Shown: one piece after another, positions 13,738-28,321 of the stretch
How the letters are laid out: each line of letters opens with the position of its first letter
How positions within the stretch are numbered: position 1 is the first letter of the stretch
Source: Blastococcus sp.
Lineage (GTDB): Bacteria > Actinomycetota > Actinomycetes > Mycobacteriales > Geodermatophilaceae
Assembly: GCA_025965795.1 (NCBI GenBank)
Contig: JAOPWH010000243.1
Span: 1 to 33,079, forward strand
DNA: 33,079 bases
Direction: 5' to 3'
Notes under the pieces: model-generated
What the model was told of the DNA's origin: nothing
Database searches by the model: none
The model's input: the letters and a program-made list of their open reading frames with translations, nothing else
Position numbers and translations under genes: made by a program

Positions 13738-13759
13738 GCTCATCTCACGGAGGACTCGC

Positions 13760-15363: not shown

Positions 15364-15421
15364 CCGGATCGGCCGGACGGCCGGGCCCGGTTCGTTCCGT
15401 GCACCTCGAGGAAGGACGCCC

Positions 15422-16696
15422 GTGAGCTCCATCGAGACCATCGACACCTTCGACGTCCGGTTCCCGACGTCGGCGATGCTGGACGGTTCGGACGCCATGA
15501 ACCCGGACCCGGACTACTCCGCCGCCTATCTCCGGCTGGGTACGGACGCCGGTGACGCGGGCCATGGGTTCGTGTTCACCATCGGGCGCGGCAACGACGT
15601 CCAGCTCGCGGCCGTGCGGGCCGTGGCCGACCTCCTGCAGGGCGAGGAGGTCGAGCCTCTGCTCGCGGACATGGGCGGCACCTGGCGCAGGTTCGTGCAC
15701 GACTCCCAGTTGCGCTGGCTGGGGCCCGAGAAGGGCGTCATGCACATGGCCGTCGGCGCGGTGGTGAACGCCCTGTGGGACCTCAAGGCCAAGCGGGCGG
15801 GCAAGCCGCTGTGGCTGCTGCTCAGTGAGATGTCGCCGAGGGAGCTGGTCGACCTCGTCGACTTCCGTTACCTCACCGACGCGCTGACGCCGGACCAGGC
15901 ACTGGAGATCCTCGAGACGGCGGTTCCGGGCCGGGAGGAGCGACGGCGCCGGCTCGAGGAGGAGGGCTACCCGGCCTACACGACGACACCCGGCTGGCTG
16001 GGGTACGACGACGAGAAGCTCGTGCGGCTGGCCCGGGAAGCGGTCGAGGAAGGCTTCGAGCAGATCAAGCTCAAGGTCGGCAGCGACCTCGACGAGGACG
16101 TCCGGCGCCTGAGGCTGGCCCGCGAAGCCGTCGGCCCGGACATCCGGATCGCCGTCGACGCCAACCAGCGGTGGGACGTCGACGAGGCGATCGCGTGGAC
16201 GAACGAGCTCGCGCAGTTCGACCTCGCGTGGATCGAGGAGCCGACGAGCCCGGACGACATCCTCGGGCACGCGCGCATCGCCGCGGCCGTGGCGCCGGTG
16301 CCGGTGGCGACCGGCGAGCACATGGCGAACCGGGTCATCGCCAAGCAGCTGCTCCAGTCGGGAGGGGCCCAGGTGCTGCAGATCGACGCGACCCGGGTCG
16401 CCGGCGTGAACGAGAACATCGCGAATCTTCTGCTGGCGGCGCGGTTCGGCGTGCGGGTGTGCCCGCACGCGGGCGGCGTGGGGCTGTGCGAAGCGGTGCA
16501 GCACCTGTCGATGTTCGACTTCGTGGCCGTGTCGGGAACCGTCGAGGACCGCTATCTCGAGTACGTCGACCACCTGCACGAGCACTTCGTCGTACCCACC
16601 GATGTGCGGAACGGCCGCTACTGGCCGCCGGCCGCGCCCGGCGCCGGGACGGAGATGCTCGCCGCGTCCGTCGAGCAGCACCTCTTCGCGGGCTGA
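15422..16696 (+). CDS. L-fuconate dehydratase (enolase superfamily)
   Basis: The product has 424 residues from a GTG start with GAGGAAGGA upstream; the frame to the left of it overlaps the SDR gene and is not used. It belongs to the mandelate racemase group of the enolase superfamily. All catalytic positions are in order: K216 and K218 (IKLKVG), D246 and N248 (AVDANQRW), E272 ([10 protein letters not shown]), E299 (TGEH), D322 ([10 protein letters not shown]) and H349 (VCPHAGG). Length, the N-terminal [20 protein letters not shown] and residue spacing match characterised Xanthomonas-type fuconate dehydratase with an offset of about two residues. It removes water from L-fuconate to give 2-keto-3-deoxy-L-fuconate, using Mg2+. 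The specificity call is the strongest in the operon; other 6-deoxy or galacto-type sugar acids may also be accepted. Confidence 0.93.
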
Positions 16697-17661
16697 TGTC
16701 CACGGTCGGGCCGGTCGACCTCGGCCCCTTGGGTTACGGCGCAGCCGCCGTCGGCAACCTCTATCGGGCGGTCGACGACGAGTCGGCCCGTCGGCTGCTC
16801 GACGCGGCCTGGGATTCGGGGATCCGCTACTACGACACGTCGCCGCACTACGGGCTGGGGCTGTCCGAGCGGCGGCTCGGGGAGATGCTGCGGCAGCGCC
16901 CGCGGGCGGACTTCGTGGTGTCCACAAAAGTCGGTCGCCTCCTGATCCCGGACCCGGACGGCGCGACCCGCAGGGACGACGACATCTTCGAGGTCCCGGC
17001 CGATTTCCGGCGGGTGTGGGACTTCTCCGAGGGAGGGATCCGCCGCAGCCTCGAGGAGTCCCTGGTCCGGCTGGGGCTCGACCGCGTCGACGTCCTCTAC
17101 CTGCACGACGTCGAGCGCAGCCCCCAGGGCATCCCGGAGGCCGTCGACTCCGGCATCGCCGCACTCGTCCGGATGCGGGAGGAGGGCCTGGTGCGGGCGA
17201 TCGGCGTCGGCACCAAGGACCTCGGCGCCGTCGAGCGGGCGGTGCGCACCGACGCGATCGACCTCGTGATGCTCCCGGGCCGCTACACGCTGCTCGAGAC
17301 CCCGGCGAAGGATGTCGTGCTGCCGCTCTGCCAGGAACGAGGGGTCGGCATCGTGAACGTCGCCGTCTTCAACTCCGGGCTGCTCGCCAGCCCGGATCCG
17401 GGCGAGGAAGCGCGCTACGAGTACCTGCCGGTTCCGGCGGACAAGCTGCGGCGGGCGCAGGAACTGGCGCGGGCGTGCCGCGAACTCGGGGTGGAGCTGC
17501 CGACCGCGGCGCTCCATTTCAGTGCCCGGCACCCGGCCATGGTGTCGGTCGTCGTCGGTGCCGACACCCCCGAGCAGATCCGGCAGAACGTCGCGCGCAT
17601 GCGGTCTCCGGTTCCCGACGAACTGTGGGAGCTCCTGGCCGAACGGGGGCTGCTCCCGTGA
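16696..17661 (+). CDS. Aldo/keto reductase, probable L-fucose (D-threo-aldose) 1-dehydrogenase
   Basis: This is a 321-residue TIM-barrel aldo/keto reductase with the catalytic tetrad D47, Y52 (DTSPHYGLG), K78 (VSTKVG) and H137 (LYLHDVE). It resembles bacterial D-threo-aldose 1-dehydrogenases, which oxidise L-fucose and related sugars at C1 to the lactone with NAD(P). The ATG shares its A with the stop of the dehydratase gene, and the stop overlaps the lactonase start (GTGA), so it is embedded in the pathway operon. Oxidation of L-fucose to L-fucono-1,5-lactone would be the first step of the pathway. Confidence 0.88.
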   Translation: MSTVGPVDLGPLGYGAAAVGNLYRAVDDESARRLLDAAWDSGIRYYDTSPHYGLGLSERRLGEMLRQRPRADFVVSTKVGRLLIPDPDGATRRDDDIFEVPADFRRVWDFSEGGIRRSLEESLVRLGLDRVDVLYLHDVERSPQGIPEAVDSGIAALVRMREEGLVRAIGVGTKDLGAVERAVRTDAIDLVMLPGRYTLLETPAKDVVLPLCQERGVGIVNVAVFNSGLLASPDPGEEARYEYLPVPADKLRRAQELARACRELGVELPTAALHFSARHPAMVSVVVGADTPEQIRQNVARMRSPVPDELWELLAERGLLP

Positions 17662-18518
17662 CCGGGTCATCGCTGCCGATCGACGCGCACGTGCACGTCT
17701 GGGACCTGGAGCTGCACGACTACGCCTGGCTCGGCCCGCAGCACGGTGGGCTGTACGCGTCCTTCTCACCGGTTCAGGCCCTGGAGGCGCTGACCAGCTG
17801 CGGCGTCGGTACCGCGGTGCTGGTCCAGGCGGAGGACTCCGCCGCCGAGACCGCCTACCTGCTGGCCGTCGCGGACCGGCATCCGTGGGTCGCCGGCGTC
17901 GTCGGCTGGCTCCCGCTGGCCGACCCGGAGGCCACGGCGGCCGCCCTCGAGGACCTCCTCCGGAATCCCCGGTTCTGTGGTGTGCGGCATCTGGTGCACG
18001 CCGATCCCCGGCCCGATCTCCTCGACTCCGCCCCCGTCCGGGACTCGCTGCGGCAGGTGGCTGCCGCGGGGCTGCCGCTGGACGTTCCCGATGCCTACCC
18101 GCGCCACCTGGAGCAGGCCGGCCGGCTGGCCGAGGAGGTCGCTGATCTCGTCGTGGTCATCGACCATCTCGCCAAGCCGCCCCTGGGCCGGCCCGAGATG
18201 GGGGAGTGGCGGGCGCAGCTGCGGCGCGTGGCGCAGCGGCCGAGCACCGTGGCCAAGGTGTCGGGACTGCGGTCGCCCGGTGCTCCCTACACCGTCGAGG
18301 CCGTGCGCCCCGCCTGGGACGCCGCGCTCGAGCTCTTCGGCCCCGATCGGCTGATGTTCGGCAGCGACTGGCCCGTGACCGTGCCCGAGGACGCCCACGG
18401 GCCGGTGGGTTACCGGCCGACGTTCGAGGTGCTGGCCGCGCTCGTGGGCGAGCTGACCGTCGACGAGCAGCGATCGGTCTGGGGCGAGACAGCCCGCCGG
18501 GTGTACCGGCTGCGCTGA
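17658..18518 (+). CDS. Amidohydrolase, probable L-fuconolactonase
   Basis: The 286-residue protein is of the amidohydrolase-2 (COG3618) lactonase group. IDAHVHVWD places metal ligands H11 and H13 at the N-terminus. DHLAKPPLG carries a conserved His, and MFGSDWPV near residue 235 carries the catalytic Asp. Characterised relatives open L-fucono-1,5-lactone to L-fuconate and similar galacto- or rhamnono-lactones. The GTG start overlaps the aldo/keto reductase stop by four bases, so the lactone producer and lactone opener are coupled. It is the last gene of the operon and meets the convergent GntR gene after only ten bases, with no clear terminator between them. Confidence 0.87.
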   Translation: MTGSSLPIDAHVHVWDLELHDYAWLGPQHGGLYASFSPVQALEALTSCGVGTAVLVQAEDSAAETAYLLAVADRHPWVAGVVGWLPLADPEATAAALEDLLRNPRFCGVRHLVHADPRPDLLDSAPVRDSLRQVAAAGLPLDVPDAYPRHLEQAGRLAEEVADLVVVIDHLAKPPLGRPEMGEWRAQLRRVAQRPSTVAKVSGLRSPGAPYTVEAVRPAWDAALELFGPDRLMFGSDWPVTVPEDAHGPVGYRPTFEVLAALVGELTVDEQRSVWGETARRVYRLR

Positions 18519-18528
18519 CCGGCCCGGC

Positions 18529-19335
18529 TCACACGACGCGTACCAGCGGCGGCACAGCCCGGCCGCCGGGGGCGCGCTCGAGCTCGACCTCGAACCGGGA
18601 TCGGTCCCCGCGGTGATAGGCGACGAAGGTCTCCACCGGTCGGTTGTCGGCGCCGAAGCTGACGTTGATCAGCTTGAGGACCGGCGCGTGCCGCGGGATC
18701 CTCAGGTCGCCGGCCAGTCGCTGGCCGGCGACATGTGCCTCGACCGATCGCCGGCTGCGGACGAGGCGGAGCCCGTAGCGGCGCTCCAGCAGTGCATACA
18801 GCGACTGCTCCCGGAGGTCCTGGTCGACCAGGTCGGGCGCCAGGGCGGCCGGTACGTGGCTGATCGCGTAGACCCAGGGCTCGTCGTCGACGAAGCGGAG
18901 CCGCTCGGTGACGACGACCGCGGTGCCGACGGGGATCTCCAGGCGTCCCGCCACGTCGGGGTCGGCCGCGGTGACCTTGAGCGTCCGGACCTCGCTGAGC
19001 AGGGTGCGGCCCATCGCGTGGACGTCGTCGTGCAGCCCGGTCAGCGCCTGGACCAGGCTCTGGGACGTCAACTGCGGCGCCACGAACGTGCCGCGGCCCT
19101 TGATCCGCTGCAGGACACCCTCGTACTGCAACTCCGAGAGGGCCTGCCGCACGACGGGACGCGAGACCCCGTACTGCTGGCACAGCTCGTGGTCGCCCGG
19201 GAGCCGGTCCCCGGACCGCAGCCCGCGCCCGGTGATGTCGGCCCGGAGGATGTCCTTGAGCTGCCGGTAGAAGGGAACGGCTGATCCCTTGTCGATGGCG
19301 TGCGCCACGGCCGTCGGGACGGCGGCGCGGCTCAT
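18529..19335 (-). CDS. GntR/HutC-family (UTRA) transcriptional regulator
   Basis: The 268-residue regulator has a winged helix at about residues 18-86 (PFYRQLKDILRADI, DRLPGDHELCQQYGVSRPVV, GRGTFVAPQ) and a UTRA ligand-binding domain at about 105-260. UTRA domains sense small effectors, often sugar phosphates. The ATG overlaps the stop of the aldolase gene, so the regulator is made from the same leftward transcript as the six-gene kinase operon it ends. That arrangement suggests autoregulation. Likely targets are the TGACA/TGTCA half-sites at 24404-24447 in front of the operon. The inducer is unknown. Confidence 0.9.
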   Translation of the reverse strand: MSRAAVPTAVAHAIDKGSAVPFYRQLKDILRADITGRGLRSGDRLPGDHELCQQYGVSRPVVRQALSELQYEGVLQRIKGRGTFVAPQLTSQSLVQALTGLHDDVHAMGRTLLSEVRTLKVTAADPDVAGRLEIPVGTAVVVTERLRFVDDEPWVYAISHVPAALAPDLVDQDLREQSLYALLERRYGLRLVRSRRSVEAHVAGQRLAGDLRIPRHAPVLKLINVSFGADNRPVETFVAYHRGDRSRFEVELERAPGGRAVPPLVRVV

Positions 19336-19985
19336 CCGGCCGCTGCCAGGGCCACGGCCTCGCGGGCCAGACGCTCGATCGTCTCCCAGTCACCGGACTG
19401 GACCGCCGTGGGCGGGGTCAGCCACGAGCCACCGACGCAACTCACGTTGGGCAGCGAGAGGTACTCCGCGGCGTTGGCCCTGCTGATGCCGCCGGTCGGG
19501 CAGAACAGAACGTCCGGAACGGGTCCGGCGACCGCGCGCAGGTAGGCGGTCCCACCCGACGCCTCGGCCGGGAAGAACTTGGCCGTCTGCTGGCCGTGCT
19601 CCCGCAGACGGAGGATCTCCGTCAGCGTGCTCGCGCCGGCCAGCAACGGCAGGCCGGTGTCCAGCGCCGCCGCCAGCAACCGGTCGGTGGCACCCGGGGT
19701 CACGAGGAACTGGGCGCCGGCTCTCACCGCGGCGGCCACGTCCTCCGGCGTCGTCACCGTGCCGGCCCCGACGGTGGTCTCCGGCACCTCGGCGGCGACC
19801 CGCTCGATCGCCTCGAGCCCGGCGGCGGTTCGCAGTGTGATCTCCATGATCCGGACCCCACCCCGCGCCAACGCCCGGGCCAGCGGCACGGCGTCCACTG
19901 CGCTGTCGAGGACGATCACCGGGATGACCGGACTGATGCGCAGGAGGTCGCCGCCGGTACCGAGTGCCTGGGTGTCGGAGCTCAT
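19332..19985 (-). CDS. eda: KDPG/KHG-type aldolase (2-dehydro-3-deoxy-phosphogluconate aldolase family)
   Basis: This is a 217-residue class I aldolase of the Eda/DgoA family. RGGVRIMEITLRT carries the catalytic E48, VGAGTVTTPED and FLVTPGATD follow, and the Schiff-base K136 sits in TAKFFPAEASGG. FCPTGGISRANAAEY binds phosphate. The enzyme cleaves a 2-keto-3-deoxy sugar acid phosphate to pyruvate plus an aldehyde. There is no 6-phosphogluconate or sugar-acid dehydratase in the same operon, so its physiological substrate is not the obvious one and may come from the neighbouring kinase and dehydrogenases. AGAGGA lies six bases before the ATG. It is followed with a four-base overlap by the GntR gene and preceded, after 46 bases, by the phosphotriesterase-family gene. 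Confidence 0.9.
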   Translation of the reverse strand: MSSDTQALGTGGDLLRISPVIPVIVLDSAVDAVPLARALARGGVRIMEITLRTAAGLEAIERVAAEVPETTVGAGTVTTPEDVAAAVRAGAQFLVTPGATDRLLAAALDTGLPLLAGASTLTEILRLREHGQQTAKFFPAEASGGTAYLRAVAGPVPDVLFCPTGGISRANAAEYLSLPNVSCVGGSWLTPPTAVQSGDWETIERLAREAVALAAAG

Positions 19986-20031
19986 GGTCGTCCTCTTCCG
20001 GAGATGCTCGTGGTTCGTGGGGACATGGATC

Positions 20032-20952
20032 TCACGGTTCGGGGTCCCAGCTCAGCCAGCGGGCCGGGTTGGCGACGAGCACCGACGCGAGCGCGTCGTC
20101 CCCGACAGCCGTCCGCAGGCGGGGCACGAATCGATCGAACAGGTAGCCGAGGCCGGGCATGCCGCCGTAGCTCACGTAGCGGGTGCGTCGCGCGACGTCC
20201 CCGCCCAGCAGCACATGTTCTCCGGCGCCGCCCTCGACCACCGCGGCCAGGCAGTCGATCAGGACCGAGTCGGGCCAGCGCTGGTGTCTTGCGGCGCCGT
20301 CGTAGCCCAGGTAGGCGCCACGGGCGGCCAGTTCCCGGTGCAGGCCGGGATCCGGGTTGCGATCGACGTGGGCCAGCGCCACCCGGGTCTCGGGACAACC
20401 CTCGCCGGCCAGGAGGTCGAGCACCTCGTGGCCGGCGCTGCCGTGCTCGAGATGCACCATGACGGGCGTTCCGGCCCCAGCCGCGAGCTGTCCGACGGCG
20501 ATCAGCACGCGTCGCTCGAAGCCGGTGAGCGACCAGTACCCCGCACCGGCCTTGACGGCTCCGGCGCGAACCACGGTGCCGTCCATGCCGGCGAAGAGGT
20601 CCTGGGAGAAGCGCGCCACCAGCGCTTCGACGGGCTCGTCGAGCAGCGGGTGCCCGGGCGGGTAGTGGGCCTCGCGGTGAGCGCCGGTGACGTGCACGAT
20701 CCGTAGGCCGGTGCCGGCGGACACCCGCGCCACCGCCTCGGGCCGGCGCCCGAGCCCCGTCGGGGTCGCCTCCACCATCGCACCGGCGCCGGACGCGCGC
20801 AGCAGCCCCGCCTCGCGGGTGCTGGCCGGTTCGTCGTCCAGGTCGTCGCCCGGCAGCAGCGGAGAGGCCTGGAAGAGGTGCTCGTGGTAGTCCGTGGCAC
20901 CCAGCTCGTCGGGTGGGATGTCGCCCAGGACCGTGCGTACCCGCAGGCTCAT
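20032..20952 (-). CDS. Phosphotriesterase-family metal hydrolase (probable lactonase)
   Basis: The 306-residue protein is of the phosphotriesterase (PTE/Php) family. Binuclear metal ligands are visible: H23 and H25 (TDYHEHL), the bridging K135 (AGAVKAG), H168 (VMVHLEHG), H196 (LAHVDRN) and D253 (LGGDVARR). Natural members are mostly lactonases, some acting on sugar-lactone phosphates; true phosphotriester hydrolysis is unlikely here. The start at 20952 overlaps the stop of the upstream shikimate-dehydrogenase-like gene (ATGA), and a longer frame to 21060 is rejected for that reason. Its place between dehydrogenases and an aldolase suggests that it opens a lactone formed in this pathway. Confidence 0.88.
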   Translation of the reverse strand: MSLRVRTVLGDIPPDELGATDYHEHLFQASPLLPGDDLDDEPASTREAGLLRASGAGAMVEATPTGLGRRPEAVARVSAGTGLRIVHVTGAHREAHYPPGHPLLDEPVEALVARFSQDLFAGMDGTVVRAGAVKAGAGYWSLTGFERRVLIAVGQLAAGAGTPVMVHLEHGSAGHEVLDLLAGEGCPETRVALAHVDRNPDPGLHRELAARGAYLGYDGAARHQRWPDSVLIDCLAAVVEGGAGEHVLLGGDVARRTRYVSYGGMPGLGYLFDRFVPRLRTAVGDDALASVLVANPARWLSWDPEP

Positions 20953-21860
20953 CGGACGCTCTCGGCCGCTTCCGCCAAGCGCGCCACGAGGGTGGGCTCC
21001 ATCGGCAGGTCGAACACGTCGGAGACCACCTGCGACCAGCCATGGATGAAGTAGCGCCACCCGTCGACGACGGTCAGGTTGCGGGCCGCCTGCTGCCGGC
21101 GGGCCTGCGCGAGGAACTCCAGCGATCCCCGGTAGTTCAGTTCCCAGACCACGGCGCGTTCCGGGAAGACGGCCGACGACGGGAGCGGAGATCCCGGACG
21201 GTCCTTCCCGAGGCCGGTCGCGTTGACGACCAGGCTGTGTGGCGGGAGCGCGGCGAGCTCTGCGGGTGCGTCCGCCTCGGCCGCGGTCAGGGTGCGTAGT
21301 TCGACCTGCGGAGCGTGAGCGGAGAGCACGTCGCGCAGATGTCGCAGCCGGGTCTCCTCGACGTCGATGAACGTCATCCGCTCGGGAGCGTCCGTGCGCC
21401 GTCCCAGGTACCAGCCGATGGCGGTGCCGGCGCCACCCGCACCCAGGCAGAGGACGTGCGCGCCCCGCGCGAAGTGGTCCGCGGCGAGTACCTCCTCCAG
21501 CGAGAGGCCTGCCGTCAGCGGGTCCTTCGCGGCGCCGAGCGTCCGTCCGCCGCGCATCGCGATCGAGGAGATCTCACCGACGCTGGCGGCGAACTCGTCG
21601 ACCTCGTCGAACATGTCGCCGGCGGCGTCGAACAGCGCGATCTTGTGCGTGGTCACCAGGGCACCCGCGCAGGACGGGTCCCCCTGGATGGCCGCCACCG
21701 CGTCGCGGTAGGACTCCGCGGGCGCGCCGAGCGGGATGTCGAGGCCGACGAGTTCGGCGTCGAGGCCGAGGATGTCGGACCAGAGCGGGAACACTTTCAT
21801 GATCGACGACGACGCCGTGCTCACACCGACGAAGCGCATGCGGCGGGTGCTCGTGCTCAC
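20949..21860 (-). CDS. Shikimate dehydrogenase-like NAD(P) oxidoreductase
   Basis: This is a 303-residue AroE/YdiB-fold protein. The N-terminal substrate domain has GALVTTHKIALFD, where K73 corresponds to the catalytic Lys of NVTxPxK, and AKDPLTAG, where D113 corresponds to the catalytic Asp. The Rossmann domain has LGAGGAGTAIG (139-149) and VVNATGLG. The fold and catalytic pair are kept, but the substrate loop differs from biosynthetic AroE (TTHK instead of the usual T-x-P-x-K), and it lies in a catabolic operon. It probably oxidises or reduces a polyol, cyclitol or keto-acid other than shikimate. The GTG start overlaps the stop of the hydroxyacid dehydrogenase gene by four bases, so the frame further upstream is not used. 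Confidence 0.85.
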   Translation of the reverse strand: MSTSTRRMRFVGVSTASSSIMKVFPLWSDILGLDAELVGLDIPLGAPAESYRDAVAAIQGDPSCAGALVTTHKIALFDAAGDMFDEVDEFAASVGEISSIAMRGGRTLGAAKDPLTAGLSLEEVLAADHFARGAHVLCLGAGGAGTAIGWYLGRRTDAPERMTFIDVEETRLRHLRDVLSAHAPQVELRTLTAAEADAPAELAALPPHSLVVNATGLGKDRPGSPLPSSAVFPERAVVWELNYRGSLEFLAQARRQQAARNLTVVDGWRYFIHGWSQVVSDVFDLPMEPTLVARLAEAAESVR

Positions 21861-22855
21861 GGTCGGCCTCCGGGGGACGGCACCACGGGGTGCGCGGGGG
21901 GCCGCCCGGCGAGGACGGCCAGGACGTCCTCCACGGCCAGGGTGCCCATGGTGTCGACCGCCTCGCGGGTCTGGGCACCCAGGTGCGGCGTGACCACGAC
22001 CCGGTCGGCGAGGTCGTCGGCCAGGAGCGGCGAGGCGGCGTCGCCGCCGGTCTCGGCGGCGAGCGTGTCGGCCGCGTACCCCGCCAGCCGGCCCTCGCGG
22101 AGGGCGCGGGCGACGGCGCCCTCGTCGACCAGGTCGGCCCGGGCGGTGTTGACCACCACCTGGTCGGCCGGGCAGCGGGACAGCCACGACCCGTCGACGA
22201 CCGGCGAACCACCCGGCGCGTGCAGCGACACGACCTGGGCCGTGTCGCGTACCTCCTCGAGCGTCGCGGGCCTGGCGCCGGTGGCGCGCACGTCGTCGTC
22301 GGCGGCGTACGGGTCGAAGGCCAGCACGTCACAGCCCAGCGCCATGAGCCGGCTCGCGGTGCTCCGCCCGATGCGGCCGAACCCCACGACGCCGGCGACC
22401 GACCCCGCCAGCTGACGCCCACGCGAGACGGTCCAGTCGGCTCGTCGCACTCGACGGTCTCCGGCGGTGACGCCGCGCAGCAGTGCGAACAGCAGCGCGA
22501 CGGCGTGCTCGGCCACGGCCTCGCTGTTGGCCCCCGGCGTGTTGGTCACCACGATGCCGGCGTCGGTCGCGGCCGCGAGGTCGACCGCGTCGACGCCGGT
22601 GCCGTAGCGCGCGACCACCCGCAGGGCCGGGGCGGCCTCGAGATGGCGGCCGGTCACCGGCCCGGTGCCCGCGATCCAGGCGACGGCGTCCCGGAGCACC
22701 GGTCCGAGGGCCTCGAGGTCGTGGGTGGCCGGAGCCCGCACCACCGCGAGGCCGGCCGCCTCCAGGCGCGCGACCAGGTCGACCCCACCGGTGGAGAACG
22801 ACCGGGAGGTGACGACGACGGTGCCGGTGACGGTGCCGCTCACGGGGCCGCTCAC
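21857..22855 (-). CDS. D-2-hydroxyacid dehydrogenase (phosphoglycerate dehydrogenase-like)
   Basis: The 332-residue product is of the D-isomer-specific 2-hydroxyacid dehydrogenase family. VVGFGRIG (G158, G160, G163) is the NAD motif, preceded by RYGTGVDAVDL and TNTPGANSEAVAEHAV. Catalytic residues are R239 (VNTARADLVD), E268 (DTLAAETGGD) and H291 (VTPHLGAQT). It lacks the ACT regulatory domain of serine-pathway SerA. It should interconvert a D-2-hydroxy acid and a 2-keto acid. The GTG at 22855 overlaps the kinase stop by four bases; a second GTG four codons later (22843) lies in a 12-base repeat, so the exact start is ambiguous. It is the second gene of the six-gene kinase operon. Confidence 0.88.
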   Translation of the reverse strand: MSGPVSGTVTGTVVVTSRSFSTGGVDLVARLEAAGLAVVRAPATHDLEALGPVLRDAVAWIAGTGPVTGRHLEAAPALRVVARYGTGVDAVDLAAATDAGIVVTNTPGANSEAVAEHAVALLFALLRGVTAGDRRVRRADWTVSRGRQLAGSVAGVVGFGRIGRSTASRLMALGCDVLAFDPYAADDDVRATGARPATLEEVRDTAQVVSLHAPGGSPVVDGSWLSRCPADQVVVNTARADLVDEGAVARALREGRLAGYAADTLAAETGGDAASPLLADDLADRVVVTPHLGAQTREAVDTMGTLAVEDVLAVLAGRPPAHPVVPSPGGRP

Positions 22856-22863
22856 GGGGCCGC
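22821..22863. repeat. 12-bp degenerate tandem repeat over a start/stop junction
   Basis: About three and a half copies of a 12-base unit run in tandem (GTGCCGGTGACG, GTGCCGCTCACG, GGGCCGCTCACG, then GGGCCGC). They cover the last codons of the kinase gene and the first codons of the hydroxyacid dehydrogenase gene, whose N-terminus therefore reads SGPV-SGTV-TGTV. The unit duplicates a GTG start codon. Confidence 0.75.
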
Positions 22864-24348
22864 GATCCGACGGTCGAACCATGGCTCGAGCCGGTCGTAG
22901 GCGTCGAGGAAGACCTCGTGCTGCGCGTTGCTGAGGTCGCCGCGGGCCGAGTCGGGGAGGAACTCCGCCGTCGTCGTCGACAACGAGCGTGCGACGCCGA
23001 AGTCCGGCACCAACCCGAGCCCGACGGCCGCGGTGACGGCGGCACCGAGACTGTTCGCATCGGCGACGATCGACCGCCGCCGAACCGGCACCTGCCAGAC
23101 GTCGGCCAGCACCTGCATCCACACGTCGCTGGTGGCGCCGCCACCGATCACGTCGACGTCGTCCACGGGGATGCCGTTGTCGGTGAACGCGCCGATGCAG
23201 GTGCGCAGGTTGAAGGCCACGCCCTCGAGGACCGCCCGCACCAGGTGGCCCGGCCCGTGATGACGCTGGAGGCCGGCGAAGACGCCCGCTGCCCCGGCGT
23301 TCCAGTGCGGAGACCGCTCGCCGAGCAGGTAGGGGAGGAAGAACAGTCCCTCGTCGGCCGCCCGGACCCTGCCCGCCTCCAGGAGCAACTCCTCGTACCC
23401 GCCGCCGGCCGCTCCCAGGAGCTGTACGACCCAGCTCAGGCTGGCACCGCCGGCCTGCATCGTGGCCGTGGGGACGAAGTGCCCGGGGACGACGTGGTTG
23501 AAGGTCATCGAGCGCATGGCGGGGTCGTGCAGCGGCTCGGTGGAGGACGCCGATATCCAGGACGACGAGCCGAGACAGACGTAGGCGCCGTCGGCGGGGG
23601 TGATCACGCCGGCCCCCACCGCCGCCATCGGACCGTCGCCGCCGCCCAGGACGACCGGGGTACCGGGCTGGAGCCCGGTATGCGCGGCCGCGGCCGGCGT
23701 CAGCCCGCCGACCACCGTGGTGGAGTCGACCACCGGCGGGAGGACGCCGGGGGCGATCCCGGCCGAGCCGAGGAGCAGGTCCGACCACTCGCCGGACGAC
23801 TGGTCGTACGCGTCGGTGCCCGACGCGTCGGAGGGATCGGTGACGAGGACGCCGGTCAGGCGGTGGACGACGAAGTCCTTGGCGATGCAGACGTGCCGGG
23901 TCCGGGCCCACGTCTCCGGCTCGTGGTCGCGGACCCACATCATCTTCGGCAGCGTGTACGTGGGGTGGATCCGGTGACCGAGGCGCCGGTACGCCACGTC
24001 CTGGCCCACCTCGGCCAGCAGCCGGTCGGTCTGTTCGGTGCTGCGGTGGTCCGCCCAGATCATCGCGGGACGGACCGGCCGGTGATCTCCGTCGAGGAAG
24101 ACCGCGCCCATCATCTGGCCGGACAGCCCGACCCCCACCACCGCCGAGCCCGGCACGCCGGCCACCTCCAGCAGCCGGCGGGTGGCGGTACCCACCGCCT
24201 CCCACCAGTGCTCGGGATCCTGCTCGGCGACCCCGCCCGCCGCGAAGTTCGCGGGGTAGTCGACGGTGACCGCCGCCAGGGTGCGGCCTTGCTCGTCGTG
24301 CAGCGAGGCCTTGTTCCCGGTGGTACCGAGGTCGTGCGCGACGATCAC
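22852..24348 (-). CDS. FGGY-family carbohydrate kinase (xylulokinase-like)
   Basis: The product has about 498 residues with both FGGY domains. The N-terminal phosphate loop is IVAHDLGTTGNKASL, VGVGLSGQMMGAVF follows, and TDPSDASGTDAYD is near the middle. The C-terminal domain has VIGGGATSDVWMQVLADVW and ANSLGAAVTAAVGLG. It phosphorylates a sugar, ketose or sugar acid with ATP; xylulokinase-like is the nearest description, but the substrate is not fixed. The start is chosen at GTG 24348 because AGGAG lies upstream at a reasonable distance and residue spacing to the phosphate loop fits. An ATG at 24411 would place 21 extra residues inside the regulatory half-site cluster. It is the first gene of the leftward operon and diverges from the glucose-6-phosphate isomerase gene. 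Confidence 0.89.
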   Translation of the reverse strand: MIVAHDLGTTGNKASLHDEQGRTLAAVTVDYPANFAAGGVAEQDPEHWWEAVGTATRRLLEVAGVPGSAVVGVGLSGQMMGAVFLDGDHRPVRPAMIWADHRSTEQTDRLLAEVGQDVAYRRLGHRIHPTYTLPKMMWVRDHEPETWARTRHVCIAKDFVVHRLTGVLVTDPSDASGTDAYDQSSGEWSDLLLGSAGIAPGVLPPVVDSTTVVGGLTPAAAAHTGLQPGTPVVLGGGDGPMAAVGAGVITPADGAYVCLGSSSWISASSTEPLHDPAMRSMTFNHVVPGHFVPTATMQAGGASLSWVVQLLGAAGGGYEELLLEAGRVRAADEGLFFLPYLLGERSPHWNAGAAGVFAGLQRHHGPGHLVRAVLEGVAFNLRTCIGAFTDNGIPVDDVDVIGGGATSDVWMQVLADVWQVPVRRRSIVADANSLGAAVTAAVGLGLVPDFGVARSLSTTTAEFLPDSARGDLSNAQHEVFLDAYDRLEPWFDRRIAAP

Positions 24349-24403: not shown

Positions 24404-24447
24404 CCTGACATGACAAGTGGTCAAGGGCTTGTCCTGACAGGTTGTCA
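24404..24447. promoter_or_regulatory. Cluster of TGACA/TGTCA half-sites in a divergent promoter (candidate GntR operators)
   Basis: Within 44 bases TGACA occurs at 24406-24410, 24411-24415 and 24435-24439, and TGTCA at 24443-24447. TGTCCTGACA (24430-24439) is a palindrome, and GACAAG/CTTGTC form a 10-base-loop dyad. On the plus strand TTGTCC (24429-24434) and TACGGT (24453-24458) could be a promoter for the isomerase operon. On the minus strand TTGACC (24424-24419) and CAGAGT (24401-24396) could be a promoter for the kinase operon. The half-sites overlap both. The co-transcribed UTRA regulator is the likely binder, by inference. Confidence 0.55.
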
Positions 24448-24485: not shown

Positions 24486-25088
24486 ATGACCACCACTGTT
24501 CCGGATCCGGGGCTGCTCGCCCTCGGGCTGGACGGCGTCATGCAGGGCGCCACGTCGAGCTACGAGAAGCGGCTGGGGGACATGGCCGGGGTCTACCGGG
24601 ACGACGCCGCCTATCGCAGGGCGCTCGCCGAGAAGGGCGCCGGCTTCCTCGTCTACCGGGTCGAGGAGCACCGCAACGTGGGCGGACCCGGGGCGCTGAT
24701 CATCGGCACGAGCACTCTGCAGCCCGGGCGGTACGGGGACGAGTTCGCCGTGACCCGCGGCCACCTGCACGCCCAGGCCGACCGTGCGGAGCTGTACTAC
24801 TGCCTCAGCGGCACGGGGGTCATGCTCCTGGAGACCTTGGACGGCCGCAGTGAGGCGCTGCCCATGCGACCGGGTGGGGCCGTGCACGTACCGGGGCACT
24901 GGGTGCACCGGAGTGTCAACGTCGGCGACGAGCCGTTCGTGACCCTCTTCTGCTACGGGGCGGACGCCGGGCAGGACTACGAACTCATCGCCCGCGCCGG
25001 AGGCATGTCCTCGCTCGTCGTCGACGACGGGGCGGGCGGCTGGTCCACCCGCCCCAATGCCGAGCACACCGGCTACGCCCGTACCTGA
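24486..25088 (+). CDS. Cupin-type glucose-6-phosphate isomerase
   Basis: The 200-residue cupin is of the archaeal-type phosphoglucose isomerase family, unrelated to the common Pgi. The metal site is RGHLHAQADRAELYYCLSG (two His and one Glu) with the fourth ligand in VPGHWVHRSVN. These enzymes interconvert glucose-6-phosphate and fructose-6-phosphate with Fe2+ or another metal; in bacterial sugar clusters related cupins may act on other sugar phosphates. GGAG lies seven to eight bases before the ATG. It is the first gene of the rightward importer operon and is divergent from the FGGY kinase, so both would be induced together. Confidence 0.86.
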   Translation: MTTTVPDPGLLALGLDGVMQGATSSYEKRLGDMAGVYRDDAAYRRALAEKGAGFLVYRVEEHRNVGGPGALIIGTSTLQPGRYGDEFAVTRGHLHAQADRAELYYCLSGTGVMLLETLDGRSEALPMRPGGAVHVPGHWVHRSVNVGDEPFVTLFCYGADAGQDYELIARAGGMSSLVVDDGAGGWSTRPNAEHTGYART

Positions 25089-25147: not shown

Positions 25148-25573
25148 GTGCTCAAGAACATCGACCCGCTGCTGACGGGTTCGCTGCTGTCCCTGCTCGA
25201 CCGGATGGGGCACGGCGACGTCCTGGGCGTGGTCGACCGCAACTTCCCGGCGCATCGCTATGGTGCGCCTGTAATCGATTTCAGAGGTGTGGACACGGGG
25301 GCGGCCGCGGCGGCCATCCTCAGCGTCTTCCCCCTGGACGGGTTCGTGGACGAGGCGGTGCACCGCATGGAGATCGACGGCTCTCCCGGCGAGATCACCG
25401 CTGCGACCGAACGTCTTCAAGAGGCGGCGGACGCTGCGGAAGGCCGCTCCATAACGATTGCGTCCGTGGAGCGCTTTGCGTTCTACGACATGGCCAAGCA
25501 GGTGTACGCCTTCGTGCACACCGGCGAGACCGTCCCTTACAGCTGCTACCTGTTGAGAAAGGGCGTCGTGTGA
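25148..25573 (+). CDS. fucU: RbsD/FucU-family mutarotase (L-fucose mutarotase)
   Basis: The 141-residue protein is of the RbsD/FucU family of decameric mutarotases, which interconvert sugar anomers after uptake. MGHGDVLGVVDRNFPAH holds the conserved H22 and D30, RMEIDG and FAFYDMAKQVYAFVHTGE follow, and CYLLRKGVV closes the protein. Length and the RNFPAH motif favour FucU (140 in E. coli) over RbsD. The GTG start is fixed by GGAGGAG about eight bases upstream. The middle and 3' part use codons that are rare in this genome (GTA, AGA, ATA, CCT), unlike its neighbours, and a LacI-type operator copy overlaps codons 41-46. Together with the downstream RbsABC genes it points to uptake of L-fucose or a related 6-deoxy sugar. 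Confidence 0.88.
   Translation: MLKNIDPLLTGSLLSLLDRMGHGDVLGVVDRNFPAHRYGAPVIDFRGVDTGAAAAAILSVFPLDGFVDEAVHRMEIDGSPGEITAATERLQEAADAAEGRSITIASVERFAFYDMAKQVYAFVHTGETVPYSCYLLRKGVV
25270..25283. promoter_or_regulatory. LacI-operator-like palindrome inside fucU (TGTAATCGATTTCA)
   Basis: A 14-base palindrome with one mismatched pair shares the AATCGATT core and the outer TG/CA with the sites at 12598 and 13724. It is intragenic (encoding Val-Ile-Asp-Phe) and is written with the rare codons GTA and AGA. It may be a real downstream operator or roadblock site for the LacI-type regulator, or chance. Confidence 0.4.
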
Positions 25574-25640: not shown

Positions 25641-27155
25641 ATGAGTCAGCTCCTCAGAGTCGAGGGGATCAGCAAGGAATTCCCCGGGGTCAAAGCACTG
25701 GACGGCGTCAACTTCGAACTCGACCGCGGCGAGGTTCTCGCCCTCGTCGGTGAGAACGGTGCCGGCAAGTCCACCCTGATGAAGATCCTCTCGGGGATCT
25801 ACAGCCCCGATGCCGGCCGGATCGTCATCGAGGACCAGGAGGTGGACGTCACCGGTCCCAAGGCGGCCCAGCAGCTCGGCATCAGCATCATCCACCAGGA
25901 GATGAACCTGATGCCTCACCTGACGGTGGCGCAGAACATCTTCATCGGCCGCGAGCCCCGAACCGGCCCGTGGCTCCGGGACGCCGAGCTGAACCGGCGG
26001 ACCAAGCAGCTCCTGGACGATCTCGGCGTCCACCTCCTGCCGACCCAGAACGTCGGGAACCTGACGGTCGCATCGCAGCAGATGGTGGAGATCGCCAAGG
26101 CGCTCTCCTTCGAGCACACCAAGATCCTGATCATGGACGAGCCGACGTCCGCGATCAGCATCTCCGAGACGCAGGTGCTGTTCCGGCTCATCCGGTCGCT
26201 CCGGGATCGCGGCGTGGGCATCGTCTACATCTCCCACCGGATGGAGGAGCTGCACCAGATCGCGGATCGGGTCACGGTGCTGCGGGACGGCCAGTACGTC
26301 GGTACCCGGCGGATGGACGACGTGACCGACGACGAGATCATCGCGATGATGGTCGGCCGCGAGATCTCCGCGGCGTACGACGACCGGCAGGAGGTGCGCA
26401 CCGGCAGTGCCGACGTGGTGCTGTCCGTGCGTGGCCTGTCCACGAAGAACCTGCTCCGCGATGTGTCCTTCGACCTGCACCGGGGCGAGATCCTGGGCTT
26501 CGCGGGCCTCATGGGCGCCGGCCGCACGGAGACTGCCCGCGCCATCATCGGCGCCGATCCCATGAGCGCCGGGACCGTCACCGTCGAGGGCAGGGAGCTC
26601 CACATCTCGGGGCCGAACGTGGCCGTCAAGCACGGGATCGGCTACCTGCCCGAGGACCGCAAGCGCCACGGTCTGATGCTCGAGCAGGACGTGACGTTCA
26701 ACGTGGCGATGGCCTCGCTGTCGGCCAACAAGACCCCACTCGGTTTCCTCCGCGAGGGTCGCGCCCGCCGCGTCGCGGACAGCTTCATCAAGTCGCTGCG
26801 GATCAAGACGCCGTCCAACAGGACGAACGTCAAGACCCTCTCCGGCGGCAACCAGCAGAAGGTCGTCATCGCGAAGTGGCTCGCGAGGAACTGTGACGTG
26901 CTCATCTTCGACGAGCCGACACGGGGCATCGACGTGGGTGCCAAGGAGGAGATCTACAAGCTGATCAAGCAGCTCGCCGACGACGGCAAGGCCGTCATCA
27001 TGATCTCTTCGGAGCTGCCGGAAGTCCTCCGTCTCTCGCACCGGATCGTCGTCATGTCGCAGGGCCGGGTCACCGGCACGCTGAGCCCCGACAAAGCCGA
27101 TCAGGAATCCATCATGAAACTGGCCACTCAGAACATCGAGGAAGTAGCGGCATGA
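25641..27155 (+). CDS. Sugar ABC importer ATP-binding protein (RbsA/MglA type, two ATPase domains)
   Basis: This is a 504-residue fused ATPase. Domain 1 (about 1-235) has Walker A GENGAGKST, signature VASQQMVEIAKAL and Walker B ILIMDEPTSAI. Domain 2 (about 260-500) has the degenerate Walker A GLMGAGRTE usual in this family, signature LSGGNQQKVVIAKWL and Walker B VLIFDEPTRGIDVG. It powers a CUT2-type monosaccharide importer. The ATG at 25641 is preferred because the protein then begins MSQLLRVEGISKEFPG; an ATG seven codons upstream has no ribosome site. The permease gene overlaps its stop by four bases. The substrate is inferred from the adjacent fucU and fuconate genes. Confidence 0.94.
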   Translation: MSQLLRVEGISKEFPGVKALDGVNFELDRGEVLALVGENGAGKSTLMKILSGIYSPDAGRIVIEDQEVDVTGPKAAQQLGISIIHQEMNLMPHLTVAQNIFIGREPRTGPWLRDAELNRRTKQLLDDLGVHLLPTQNVGNLTVASQQMVEIAKALSFEHTKILIMDEPTSAISISETQVLFRLIRSLRDRGVGIVYISHRMEELHQIADRVTVLRDGQYVGTRRMDDVTDDEIIAMMVGREISAAYDDRQEVRTGSADVVLSVRGLSTKNLLRDVSFDLHRGEILGFAGLMGAGRTETARAIIGADPMSAGTVTVEGRELHISGPNVAVKHGIGYLPEDRKRHGLMLEQDVTFNVAMASLSANKTPLGFLREGRARRVADSFIKSLRIKTPSNRTNVKTLSGGNQQKVVIAKWLARNCDVLIFDEPTRGIDVGAKEEIYKLIKQLADDGKAVIMISSELPEVLRLSHRIVVMSQGRVTGTLSPDKADQESIMKLATQNIEEVAA

Positions 27156-28210
27156 CCACTCAACGCACGGACGAAGATCTGGCAGACGCAGGCACCCAGT
27201 CGCCGCCAGGGGAGAGCGTCGCGGCGGCCGGTGCGCGCACCGGCCGGTTCGCCGGGCTGGGTCAGGGACTCCAGCAGATGCTGGCGTTCGGAACGCTCAT
27301 CGCGCTGGTGATCATCTTCTTCATCGCCAGCCCGAACTTCCTCACGATCTCGAACCTCAGCTCGATCCTGCTGTCCACGGCCGTCATCGGCATCCTCGCG
27401 GTGGGCACCACGTTCGTGATCATCACCGGCGGCATCGACCTGTCGCTCGGTACGGCGATGACCCTGTGCTCGGTCGTCACCGGCCTTCTGCTGGCCAACG
27501 CCGGCCTGCCGCTCCCGGTGGGCGTCCTCGGCGGGATCGCGATGGGGGCCTTGGTCGGACTCATCAACGGTTTCAACGTCGCGATCCTGGGATTGCCCCC
27601 GTTCATCGCCACGCTGTCGATGATGCTGGTGGCGCAGGGGCTGGCCCTCGTCCTCTCCGGCGTCCGGCCGATCTACTTCAACGACGTGCCGGGATTCTCG
27701 AGGATCGCGCTCGGCGAGATCATCCCCAAGGTGCCGAACGCGGTGCTGATCCTGTTCCTCCTCGCCCTCGTGGCCGGGATCATCCTGCGCAAGACCATCC
27801 TCGGCCGGATGACCTACGCCATCGGCAGCAACGAGGAGGCGACCCGGCTCTCGGGCATCAACACCCGACGCTGGACCCTGGCCATCTACACCCTGGCGGG
27901 GGTGGCCACCGGCGTCGCCGGCGTGGTGCTCGCGGCGCGGCTGAACTCTGCCCAGCCGCAGCTCGGTGTCGGCTACGAGTTGCAGGCCATCGCCGCGGTG
28001 ATCATCGGTGGGACGTCGCTGCTCGGCGGACGGGGATCGATCCTCGGCACGATCATCGGCGCGCTGATCATGAGCGTCCTGATCAACGGCCTACGCATCC
28101 TCGCGATCCAGACCGAGTGGCAGACCGTGGTCGTCGGCATGGTCGTCCTCATCGCGGTCTTCGCGGACAACCTGCGCAAGCGGCGCGCCGAGGGCGGCGC
28201 CCATAAGTAG
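27152..28210 (+). CDS. Sugar ABC importer permease (RbsC type)
   Basis: This is a 352-residue membrane permease of the BPD_transp_2 family. A polar N-terminus of about 45 residues precedes eight to ten hydrophobic helices. The cytoplasmic coupling segment GSNEEATRLSGINTRRW (about 223-239) contacts the ATPase. ITGGIDLSLG and AAVIIGGTSLLGGRGS are family hallmarks. As in other CUT2 importers only one permease gene is present, so the channel is probably a homodimer. The ATG overlaps the ATPase stop. It would move a monosaccharide delivered by the binding protein encoded 111 bases downstream. Confidence 0.94.
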   Translation: MTTQRTDEDLADAGTQSPPGESVAAAGARTGRFAGLGQGLQQMLAFGTLIALVIIFFIASPNFLTISNLSSILLSTAVIGILAVGTTFVIITGGIDLSLGTAMTLCSVVTGLLLANAGLPLPVGVLGGIAMGALVGLINGFNVAILGLPPFIATLSMMLVAQGLALVLSGVRPIYFNDVPGFSRIALGEIIPKVPNAVLILFLLALVAGIILRKTILGRMTYAIGSNEEATRLSGINTRRWTLAIYTLAGVATGVAGVVLAARLNSAQPQLGVGYELQAIAAVIIGGTSLLGGRGSILGTIIGALIMSVLINGLRILAIQTEWQTVVVGMVVLIAVFADNLRKRRAEGGAHK

Positions 28211-28321
28211 GGGTGCCTCTGCGCGTGATCACGTCCGCGCCTCAGTCACACAAGGAACGGTGGATCGAACGGTCATCGCCGACAGGCGAGCGTGCCGAGT
28301 CAGTCGAAGGAGAAACCTGCT

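Follow-up and report, generated by a model that had tools for sequence, protein, structure and literature searches.

A conserved bacterial gene module predicted to degrade a sugar phosphate by way of a phospho-lactone

Closest described systems

In the Entner-Doudoroff pathway, G6PDH, 6-phosphogluconolactonase, Edd and Eda convert a sugar phosphate via a lactone-phosphate and an aldonate-phosphate into a 2-keto acid, which a class I aldolase then cleaves. The gene cassette that we analyzed in a 33,079-nucleotide stretch of Blastococcus sp. DNA (contig JAOPWH010000243.1; hereafter the window) would follow the same outline and encodes an aldolase of the Eda family, but its dehydrogenase and lactonase candidates are of other folds, a 2-hydroxyacid dehydrogenase stands in the place of the dehydratase, and a predicted ketose kinase and cupin isomerase precede these steps. 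Its phosphotriesterase (PTE)-family protein has metal ligands and a basic distal pocket in common with the phospho-furanose lactonases of cog1735, but the pocket reads Arg/Gln/Arg/Arg in the window protein and Lys/Lys/Arg/Tyr in Lmo2620. A third point of comparison is provided by shikimate/quinate dehydrogenases and 5-ketofructose reductase, which share the fold, the GAGGAG motif and a Lys-Asp pair with the cassette's AroE-like protein, whereas the residues at S16, N86 and Q244 of shikimate dehydrogenase differ. Finally, relatives of the AroE-like, PTE and cupin genes cluster with YhfS-like, DUF2620 (which we take to be YhfU) and Metalloenzyme (YhfW-like) genes at three loci (L036, L037 and L117; Pfam was run on L036 and L117) that resemble the yhf/php-type operons of E. 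coli; unlike the cassette, the stretches fetched from these loci hold no FGGY kinase, and at L036 Pfam identifies genes for HPr and EI of the PTS in its place.

Two divergent operons and their recurrence

Six genes lie on the minus strand of the window. They encode a GntR/UTRA regulator (18529-19335; Pfam GntR and UTRA), a KDPG/KHG-type class I aldolase (19332-19985; PF01081, with TIGR01182 and PRK05718 above cut-off), the PTE-family protein (20032-20952; PF02126), the AroE-like dehydrogenase of shikimate-dehydrogenase fold (20949-21860), a PGDH-like D-2-hydroxyacid dehydrogenase (HADH; 21857-22855; PF02826/PF00389, best matched by the PGDH model, below cut-off) and an FGGY kinase of XylB type (22852-24348). 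Pfam thus backs the FGGY, 2-Hacid_dh, PTE, KDPG/KHG aldolase and GntR-plus-UTRA families named in an earlier sequence-only reading. That reading also described a six-gene operon in which four of five junctions overlap by 4 bp, and the sequence bears this out: we read ATGA at 19332-19335 and 20949-20952 and GTGA at 21857-21860 and 22852-22855, leaving the 46-bp gap between the aldolase and PTE genes as the sole non-overlapping junction. The interval it assigned to the operon (19332-24348), however, holds the five enzyme genes, with gntR outside. Two of the four overlaps depend on GTG starts, and the first ATG of the AroE-like gene, at 21839, may be its conserved start, giving a 17-bp gap instead of an overlap. 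The kinase ATG at 24348, which is preceded by a further in-frame ATG at 24411, yields a protein of 498 amino acids that matches the gene calls in two related loci (L042 and L043).

The module is larger than first noted, as the earlier reading covered the minus-strand operon but missed a divergent half on the plus strand, across a 137-bp gap. This half encodes a cupin-type phosphoglucose isomerase (24486-25088; PF06560, 137 bits to archaeal cupin PGI), an RbsD/FucU-family sugar mutarotase (25148-25573; PF05025, L-fucose mutarotase model below cut-off) and an Rbs-type ABC importer comprising an RbsA-type ATPase (25641-27155; ABC_tran; relatives in 50/64 loci), an RbsC-type permease (27152-28210; BPD_transp_2; relatives in 47/64 loci) and an RbsB-type sugar-binding protein (28292-29365; PDB relatives 4kqc, 4wut and 4rxt), the 3' end of whose gene is uncertain within an open frame of 28292-29656. 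The intergenic gap contains the palindrome TGACAGGTTGTCA (24435-24447), an exact match to the pattern TGACA-N3-TGTCA, and a second copy with one mismatch, TGACAAGTGGTCA (24411-24423). Judged by its sequence and position, TGACAGGTTGTCA is a putative operator common to the two operons: the equivalent gap in L042 and L043 carries the palindrome, and seven of the eight exact copies in 80 related loci precede cupin, kinase or rbsB genes. Counting against a shared operator, 72 of the 80 loci lack an exact copy, and none was found in 10 of 21 loci checked with one mismatch allowed. The GntR/UTRA protein is the probable regulator of the module; gntR relatives occur in 21 of the 64 loci in which the AroE-like gene is flanked by 8 kb on both sides (hereafter fully flanked loci).

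Across these 64 loci, the AroE-like gene is accompanied by PGDH-like (58), cupin (59), kinase (55) and PTE (55) genes, and the complete set of PGDH-like, kinase, cupin and either PTE or MBL-fold genes is present in 50, a recurrence that is beyond chance and that upholds the earlier view of one functional module. At least 587 AroE-like stretches were confirmed and, among the matches listed, they fall in five phyla. The cassette thus recurs with little change across distant bacterial groups, and no named pathway explains it. Distance matrices of the core proteins agree, with r of 0.83 for AroE-PTE, 0.88 for AroE-HADH and 0.90 for PTE-HADH (host kinship uncorrected), and none of 200 permutations reached equally high agreement. 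Cupin distances match those of the other core genes poorly (r 0.36-0.43), which speaks against the route proposed below.

Predicted enzymes of the cassette

The window kinase exceeds the cut-off of the XylB equivalog model (TIGR01312, 380 bits) with 402 bits, as does the L044 kinase with 383.5 bits; the S. meliloti kinase (L122) falls below at 326 bits. Conserved columns are seen in its alignment, and we predict that it is a ketose kinase. In the cupin, T90, G92, H93, H95, E102 and H141 are present in 62/62 rows, comprising what we take to be the metal site (H-x-H, E and H) and phosphate site (T-x-G) of cupin PGI. The gene is the only PF06560 match in its genome and is predicted to encode a ketose-phosphate/aldose-phosphate isomerase. 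On a common megaplasmid of S. meliloti a cupin relative lies beside an FGGY kinase, an alcohol dehydrogenase and an Rbs-type importer, an arrangement that counts for the cupin acting after a ketose kinase; this 24.5-kb stretch gave no match to the AroE-like, PTE, MBL, PGDH-like or aldolase queries.

The AroE-like label given by the sequence-only reading finds no support from the Pfam shikimate domain, which has no match in this protein, and all NCBIfam shikimate models fall far below their cut-offs (best 48.9 versus 235 bits), but the fold is backed by structure prediction. The AlphaFold model (mean pLDDT 93.5) is closest to quinate/shikimate dehydrogenases and 5-ketofructose reductase, at 14-24% identity to the 50 structures listed. 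K66 and D106, the latter aligned with the Asp of the N-T-D-G motif, are kept in 81/81 rows (window row included) and correspond to what we take to be the catalytic K65 and D102 of AroE. Of the residues that presumably bind shikimate in E. coli AroE (S14, S16, N86 and Q244), a MAFFT alignment with four AroE proteins shows S14 retained as S11 and S16 replaced by I13, and in another comparison N86 and Q244 correspond to S91 and G267; the last replacement is the least certain, as it depends on the register of the D-G motif and the MAFFT alignment places the C-terminal part differently. This loss of shikimate-binding residues disfavors a cyclitol as substrate, one of the options raised earlier, and no set of inositol genes was noticed next to the cassette. 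A separate AroE above the Pfam cut-off is encoded in 5/5 cassette genomes, including that of the window. We predict that the AroE-like enzyme oxidizes an aldose-phosphate to a lactone-phosphate. AroE-fold enzymes are known to oxidize secondary alcohols of rings or to reduce 5-ketofructose, and we know of no documented C1 oxidation by this fold, which weighs against the proposed step, as does the variable cofactor position 159 (D in 35, A in 30, N in 14 and G in 2 of 81 rows).

The PTE-family protein keeps its metal ligands (H23, H25, K134, H167, H195 and D252) in 66-67 of 67 rows (window row included), and its best solved relatives are 3pnz and 3msr, which we take to be Lmo2620 and MS53_0025, phospho-furanose lactonases of cog1735. 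The distal-phosphate pocket of Lmo2620 presumably consists of K242, K244, R275 and Y278. In the aligned columns of the cassette proteins we find R222 (65 R and 2 K), R255 (63 R, 1 K) and R258 (62 R) among the 67 rows; at position 224, 48 rows have R and 13 have K, but the window protein has Q, against the phosphate reading. From these residues we predict a phospho-lactone hydrolase, with the window protein scoring 107 bits against an NCBIfam phospho-furanose lactonase cut-off of 630. Among 88 loci, 67 have PTE only, 10 an MBL-fold protein only, one both and 10 neither. The MBL-fold protein replaces PTE in 8/8 plasmid-collection loci fetched, and among plasmid records, the 15 in which the AroE-like gene is full-length are also the 15 best for MBL. 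By sequence it appears distantly UlaG-like, scoring 44 bits against the UlaG (L-ascorbate-6-phosphate lactonase) model (cut-off 306), behind a generic metal-dependent hydrolase model (61 bits, cut-off 144). Seven of the 64 fully flanked loci have neither PTE nor MBL, which argues against a phospho-lactone route; two of these (L086 and L098) have no core family within 8 kb.

The earlier reading held that every enzyme keeps its catalytic residues, which is the case for the PTE, AroE-like and aldolase proteins and for R239 and H291 of HADH (67/67 rows, window row included) but not for what we take to be the third residue of the HADH triad, E268, a column split between E (29 rows), D (37) and Q (1) among the 67 rows. 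An acidic residue, D181, is found in 65/67 HADH rows and suggests NAD(H) use, so the enzyme is probably NAD-dependent. Although it misses the PGDH equivalog cut-off (197.5 versus 454 bits; 332 amino acids versus a 525-position model), we predict that it oxidizes an aldonate-phosphate at C2. The aldolase has the Glu (E48) and Schiff-base Lys (K136) in 34/34 rows (window row included), scores 244 bits against TIGR01182 (cut-off 156) and is predicted to act last, cleaving a 2-keto acid between C3 and C4. Two points run counter to the proposed route here: the aldolase gene is present in 30 of the 64 fully flanked loci and absent from 34, its type varying, and the usual product of KDPG aldolases is pyruvate rather than hydroxypyruvate.

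Proposed route and alternative readings

Taken as a block, the genes very probably form a catabolic module for a sugar phosphate with a phospho-lactone step. We propose that the two operons are co-regulated, and we infer a route, including its reactions, order and sugar, in which the importer would take up a sugar that either is a ketose or is converted into one; the FGGY kinase would phosphorylate the ketose and the cupin would isomerize the product to an aldose-phosphate. Oxidation of C1 of the cyclic form by the AroE-like enzyme would then give a lactone-phosphate, which the PTE-type enzyme (MBL-fold in the proteobacterial versions fetched) would open to an aldonate-phosphate; the PGDH-like enzyme would produce the 2-keto-aldonate-phosphate by oxidation at C2, and the KDPG-type aldolase would cleave the latter, yielding glyceraldehyde-3-phosphate and hydroxypyruvate from a C6 acid. 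In outline this would resemble the Entner-Doudoroff pathway, but other enzyme families would do the work and oxidation would take the place of dehydration; we give this complete order of steps somewhat less than an even chance. In agreement with the sequence-only reading, which saw no sugar-acid dehydratase, Edd does not exceed the TIGR01196 cut-off in any of eight cassette genomes, that of the window (88% complete) included, by a strict cut-off that the control exceeds in 2/14 genomes; oxidation may therefore replace dehydration. The window genome also has three G6PD_N matches and so encodes an ordinary G6PDH. Nameable front-end genes are mostly ketose-forming (L-fucose isomerase family, 3-epimerase-like, polyol dehydrogenases).

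A bolder and rather doubtful extension is that the cassette is a complete, undescribed Entner-Doudoroff analogue, in which PGDH-like oxidation substitutes for the dehydratase and hydroxypyruvate is released, spread over five phyla and supplied with sugars by interchangeable front-end genes (for an isomerase, a 3-epimerase, polyol dehydrogenases or a PTS), and that its yhf-type versions provide an initial clue to what the orphan php/yhf operon of E. coli does. If true, many proteins labelled shikimate dehydrogenase, phosphoglycerate dehydrogenase, glucose-6-phosphate isomerase or phosphotriesterase-like would be misnamed members of one sugar pathway, oxidative sugar-phosphate breakdown would have a second solution that dispenses with a dehydratase, PTE proteins that hydrolyze phospho-lactones would gain a biological role, and the yhf/php operon would acquire a testable lead.

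Near to the earlier view is an improbable alternative in which PTE begins by opening a lactone that is not phosphorylated, the kinase phosphorylates the resulting acid in the manner of gluconokinase, and the AroE-like and PGDH-like enzymes oxidize inner carbons or invert them ahead of the aldolase step. The kinase matches include an FGGY gluconokinase model (234 bits, cut-off 649), but no FGGY model other than XylB exceeds its cut-off for the window kinase. In favor of this order, L081, L060 and L069 carry a fucose-cluster-type aldo-keto reductase and an L-fuconolactonase-like gene, an aldose dehydrogenase and lactonase-like pair beside the cassette that misfits a ketose front end, and TRAP transporters, which often import acids, are found in L114 (by reading) and L127 (annotated). 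This order would nonetheless leave the cupin sugar-phosphate isomerase with no role. Because that isomerase is present, the PTE pocket is cationic and conserved, and PTE is exchanged for a distantly UlaG-like MBL-fold protein, we instead favor a lactone that is an internal, phosphorylated intermediate formed after the kinase; a lactone step, as suggested earlier, is thus retained, but not a lactone as imported substrate.

Similarly improbable is a reading that places the PGDH-like enzyme last, as a hydroxypyruvate/glyoxylate reductase acting on the aldolase product, with the AroE-like enzyme supplying the keto group. HADH does match models for reductases of glyoxylate and hydroxypyruvate, though below their cut-offs, and at a single locus, L090, a relative of glycerate 2-kinase is encoded a short way downstream of the AroE-like gene (280 versus cut-off 550 bits), an observation that also counts for the main route. 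Against this reading, HADH is more widely kept than the aldolase (58 of the fully flanked loci versus 30), and the NAD(H) use suggested by D181 fits oxidation, though reduction is still compatible.

That the pathway has already been characterized under another name is less probable again. EFI solute-binding-protein work reportedly studied similar gene sets, but our search of an open-access library listed no paper that joins these families or describes the cassette, and annotated records label the genes generically. This is in keeping with the earlier description of an unusual combination with no nameable pathway, as is our neighborhood comparison, in which the gene set co-occurs widely and no characterized pathway was found for it.

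The least probable reading makes the operon an accessory of the neighboring L-fucose pathway (9.8-18.5 kb of the window), specific to L-fucose or L-galactose: the window and many Microbacterium loci do have fucU, rbsABC, epimerase, fucI-like and akr or fucD relatives close to the cassette, and across whole loci (up to 10 kb a side) fucD is found in 27 of 80 and akr in 29. Within 8 kb, however, fucD occurs in 3 and fucU in 14 of the 64 fully flanked loci, the operons at five loci (L044, L048, L052, L075 and L093) come with an importer of their own but lack any fucose gene within eight genes, and seven annotated proteobacterial loci have no fucose gene, with polyol dehydrogenases in several of them.

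Gene arrangement and neighbours in the window

The host assembly comprises 4.0 Mb in 317 contigs at 88% completeness, and the window is its contig C50. The sequence-only reading described an operon (19332-24348) encoding a kinase, a hydroxyacid dehydrogenase, an AroE-like protein, a phosphotriesterase (PTE) lactonase-like protein, a KDPG-type aldolase and a GntR regulator. All six genes, which lie on the minus strand, were confirmed with the stated coordinates, four overlaps of 4 bp and one gap of 46 bp; GTG starts are needed for two of the overlaps. Family searches upheld the assignments, with an FGGY kinase and a PGDH-like dehydrogenase, save for the AroE-like protein, whose sequence resembles shikimate dehydrogenases only distantly. 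PTE is a predicted phospho-lactone hydrolase. Beyond the six genes, on the far side of the kinase start, we found a divergent group made up of a cupin phosphoglucose isomerase gene (24486-25088; 137 bits to the archaeal enzyme), an RbsD/FucU-family mutarotase gene and RbsA, RbsC and RbsB importer genes. The RbsB frame (28292-29656) runs approximately 95 codons beyond its usual end, given relatives of approximately 330 amino acids, and overlaps the 3' end of the opposite-strand ribokinase-like gene (29322-30137), possibly as a frame or assembly artefact.

Within the 137-bp gap separating the kinase start (24348) from the cupin gene lie an exact palindrome, TGACA-N3-TGTCA (24435-24447), and a copy with one mismatch (24411-24423). 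When up to one mismatch is allowed the window holds three matches versus 0.45 expected, the third being inside the binding-protein gene. A scan of 80 related loci (1.51 Mb), exact in all 80 and with one mismatch allowed in 21, recovered eight exact copies, where base composition alone would predict approximately 0.43. In seven cases the copy precedes a gene for a cupin, a kinase or rbsB (L042, L043, L052, L059, L075, L087 and L088, where L-numbers denote loci fetched from other genomes or plasmid records) and the eighth (L055) does not; the exact palindrome was absent from the other 72 loci. For the window's lineage, we read the palindrome as the probable GntR operator.

A separate L-fucose-type cluster (9798-18518) ends beside gntR and encodes 3-epimerase-like, distant FucI-like (Fucose_iso_C), LacI, FAA hydrolase, SDR, enolase-type dehydratase, AKR and L-fuconolactonase-like proteins, part of these assignments being by reading only. 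The importer is followed by genes for a ribokinase-like PfkB, a Gfo/Idh/MocA dehydrogenase and a fructose-6-phosphate-aldolase/transaldolase-like protein (29322-31977), and pfkB and transaldolase relatives also adjoin the cassette repeatedly in other genera. LigD-type polymerase-, ATP-dependent DNA ligase- and trehalose-forming GH13-like genes (1343-5176 and 32003-33079) were assigned by reading only.

Distribution and conservation of the cassette

An AroE-like relative (E <= 1e-10) was detected in 22 of 394 genomes of the class, and a scan of named genomes confirmed at least 587 AroE-like stretches, the best 80 of which were kept, a set skewed towards Microbacterium. The closest relatives among the matches listed belong to a Geodermatophilaceae bacterium (85%) and a Blastococcus MAG (82%), which points to a probable origin of the window in that family. 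The best 80 of at least 587 include many Actinomycetota, Microbacterium foremost, as well as Anaerolineae and other Chloroflexi, Trueperaceae (Deinococcota), Bacillota (Paenibacillus, Cohnella, Eubacteriales and Christensenellaceae) and alphaproteobacteria (Paracoccaceae and Lichenibacterium). Records from a plasmid collection, 8 of 16 of which were fetched, add rhizobia, Marinovum, Lichenicola and Paraburkholderia. One of the records, CP090106.1 (L122), is called plasmid pSymB at 3.7 Mb, roughly as large as the S. meliloti chromosome, and its label may be wrong.

Gene content was tabulated for the 64 loci, from the best 80 of at least 587, that have 8 kb on both sides, leaving outside the table 24 of the 88 loci (16 genome loci lacking full flanks and the eight plasmid loci); genes were called by tblastn because our home-made gene caller erred (L031 and L104). 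In these 64 loci we detected cupin in 59, PGDH-like in 58, kinase in 55, PTE in 55, an MBL-fold protein in 3 and aldolase in 30, together with rbsA in 50, rbsC in 47, a 3-epimerase-like gene in 29, gntR in 21, fucU in 14 and fucD in 3. The complete core (PGDH-like, kinase, cupin, and either PTE or MBL) is present in 50 of the 64; 7 have three of its four functions and 7 have fewer. The eight plasmid loci contain kinase, cupin and MBL in every case, PGDH-like in seven, aldolase in six and PTE in none.

Pairwise distances, computed from alignments of proteins within length limits, are correlated among the AroE-like, PTE, PGDH-like and kinase proteins (r 0.78-0.90), weakly so between each of these and the cupin (0.36-0.43) and to an intermediate degree for the aldolase (0.53-0.69). 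In the window's genome the cupin family is matched once and the ordinary PGI family twice, both times partially. A PTE-anchored search returned 49 of 394 genomes (E <= 1e-30), and the 20 stretches fetched from it are mostly non-cassette contexts; a 3.3-kb contig (L160) carries PTE, aldolase and hydroxyacid dehydrogenase genes without an AroE-like gene. AroE-like genes with no cassette nearby occur at L066 (a short contig), L086 and L098, and those of Spongiactinospora (L066 and L086) share a different neighbourhood. L076 has a further AroE-like gene of divergent sequence (11893-12807; 41% identity to the window's) beside the cassette, and no other locus combines PTE with MBL signals. DeoC-family aldolases lie inside the cassette in some lineages (L122 and L095, TIGR00126 above cut-off), and were also assigned at L108 by reading and at L121 from a similar gene row.

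REPLACEMENTS and the proposed chemistry

Our favoured scheme would lead from a ketose through ketose-phosphate, aldose-phosphate, phospho-lactone and phospho-aldonate to a 2-keto acid cleaved by the aldolase. Across the 88 loci (the best 80 of at least 587 plus eight plasmid loci), 67 have PTE only, 10 MBL only, one both and 10 neither. Among the plasmid records, the 15 that carry AroE-like genes of full length also rank as the 15 best for MBL. This near-mutual exclusion argues that PTE and the MBL-fold protein most likely share one function. Known relatives of each, phospho-furanose lactonases for PTE and UlaG for the MBL-fold protein, open phosphorylated sugar lactones. The match of the MBL-fold protein to the L-ascorbate-6-phosphate lactonase (UlaG) model is weak (44 bits, cut-off 306), its best model being a generic hydrolase (61 bits, cut-off 144). 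In PTE, the pocket matching that of 3pnz, whose residues we take to hold the distal phosphate, is basic as well.

Some clusters lack the FGGY kinase: a PfkB relative is present at L119, and HPr and EI are encoded at L036 (assigned with Pfam) and at L037 and L117 (both by reading), as expected if the FGGY kinase phosphorylates the incoming sugar. These three loci are yhf/php-type operons (YhfS-like, DUF2620, Metalloenzyme, HPr and EI) that contain AroE-like, PTE and cupin relatives, a link to the orphan yhf operon of E. coli. An S. meliloti relative of the L122 cupin (58-62%) is accompanied only by an FGGY kinase, an alcohol dehydrogenase and an importer of the Rbs type, as expected if the cupin isomerises a ketose-phosphate. 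PMC10433430 names pgiA1 (SMc02042) and pgiA2 (SMb20857), and we infer that the latter encodes the L181 cupin.

The genes ahead of the kinase differ by lineage and include the L-fucose isomerase family (L109 scores far above the cut-off and L105 lies at it; L104 and L113 were assigned from similarity), 3-epimerase-like genes and, in rhizobia, polyol dehydrogenases, all front ends that make ketoses. An aldose dehydrogenase with a lactonase-like gene at L081, L060 and L069 misfits a simple ketose front end.

The AroE-like enzyme, the 2-keto acid and the substrate

The AlphaFold model of the AroE-like protein is confident (mean pLDDT 93.5), and the 50 closest solved structures listed, which include quinate dehydrogenase, 5-ketofructose reductase (treated in PMC7954740) and shikimate dehydrogenases, match it with query-normalised TM-scores of 0.63-0.75 at 14-24% identity. 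All 81 aligned rows share Lys66 and Asp106. We take S16, N86 and Q244 (AroE numbering) to be shikimate ligands. In an alignment for which seven AroE control loci were fetched, the motif filter giving a protein in four and none in three, S16 corresponds to Ile13. In another alignment N86 corresponds to Ser91 and, by reading its register, Q244 to Gly267, an end that the first alignment shifts. A separate protein over the Pfam shikimate cut-off is encoded elsewhere in each of the five cassette genomes examined, and on this and the lost ligand residues a true shikimate or quinate enzyme was rejected. K212, R237, W261, Y263 and H266, kept in 79-81 of the 81 rows, may bind a phosphorylated sugar. 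The enzyme would oxidise C1, yielding the lactone for its usual partner, or alternatively another carbon.

For the 2-keto acid, a dehydratase would be the alternative source. Edd reached its cut-off in none of eight cassette genomes, a strict cut-off reached by 2 of 14 control genomes; five of the eight have a single ILVD_EDD-family member, taken for IlvD, and the window's genome has one such protein. Enolase-type dehydratases are present as fucD in the window's L-fucose cluster and, by reading, around a second KDPG aldolase at L189, and enzymes of this type are known to act on unphosphorylated acids. The PGDH-like enzyme, which has an NAD-type Asp in 65 of 67 rows, could thus supply the aldolase's 2-keto acid by oxidising C2, and aldolase cleavage would then give hydroxypyruvate. 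At one locus, L090, a glycerate 2-kinase relative (280 bits, cut-off 550) lies shortly downstream of the AroE-like gene.

These enzymes are individually of known kinds, and our literature search, covering mostly open-access journals, found no paper joining the families into one pathway, which would be a new form of oxidative sugar-phosphate breakdown; searches by locus tag likewise yielded no such function. A role limited to part of L-fucose breakdown was rejected, as fucD and fucU occur within 8 kb in only 3 and 14 of the 64 fully flanked loci. A cyclitol pathway was rejected because the window's Gfo/Idh gene scores 93 versus 355 for inositol dehydrogenase and no set of inositol genes was noticed next to the cassette. 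Apiose, tetritol, altritol, ascorbate and sulfo-sugar pathways are not known to use these gene families, and a tetrose substrate was rejected since no 1,4-lactone can form from a 4-phosphate. Relatives of the binding protein are too remote for naming the sugar. Known substrates of related phospho-lactonases are C5, while C6 is suggested by the enzymes that the cupin is named after and by a fructoselysine-6-phosphate deglycase relative at L107 (174 bits, cut-off 430). The species name of the L063 host, Cryobacterium tagatosivorans, may hint at tagatose.
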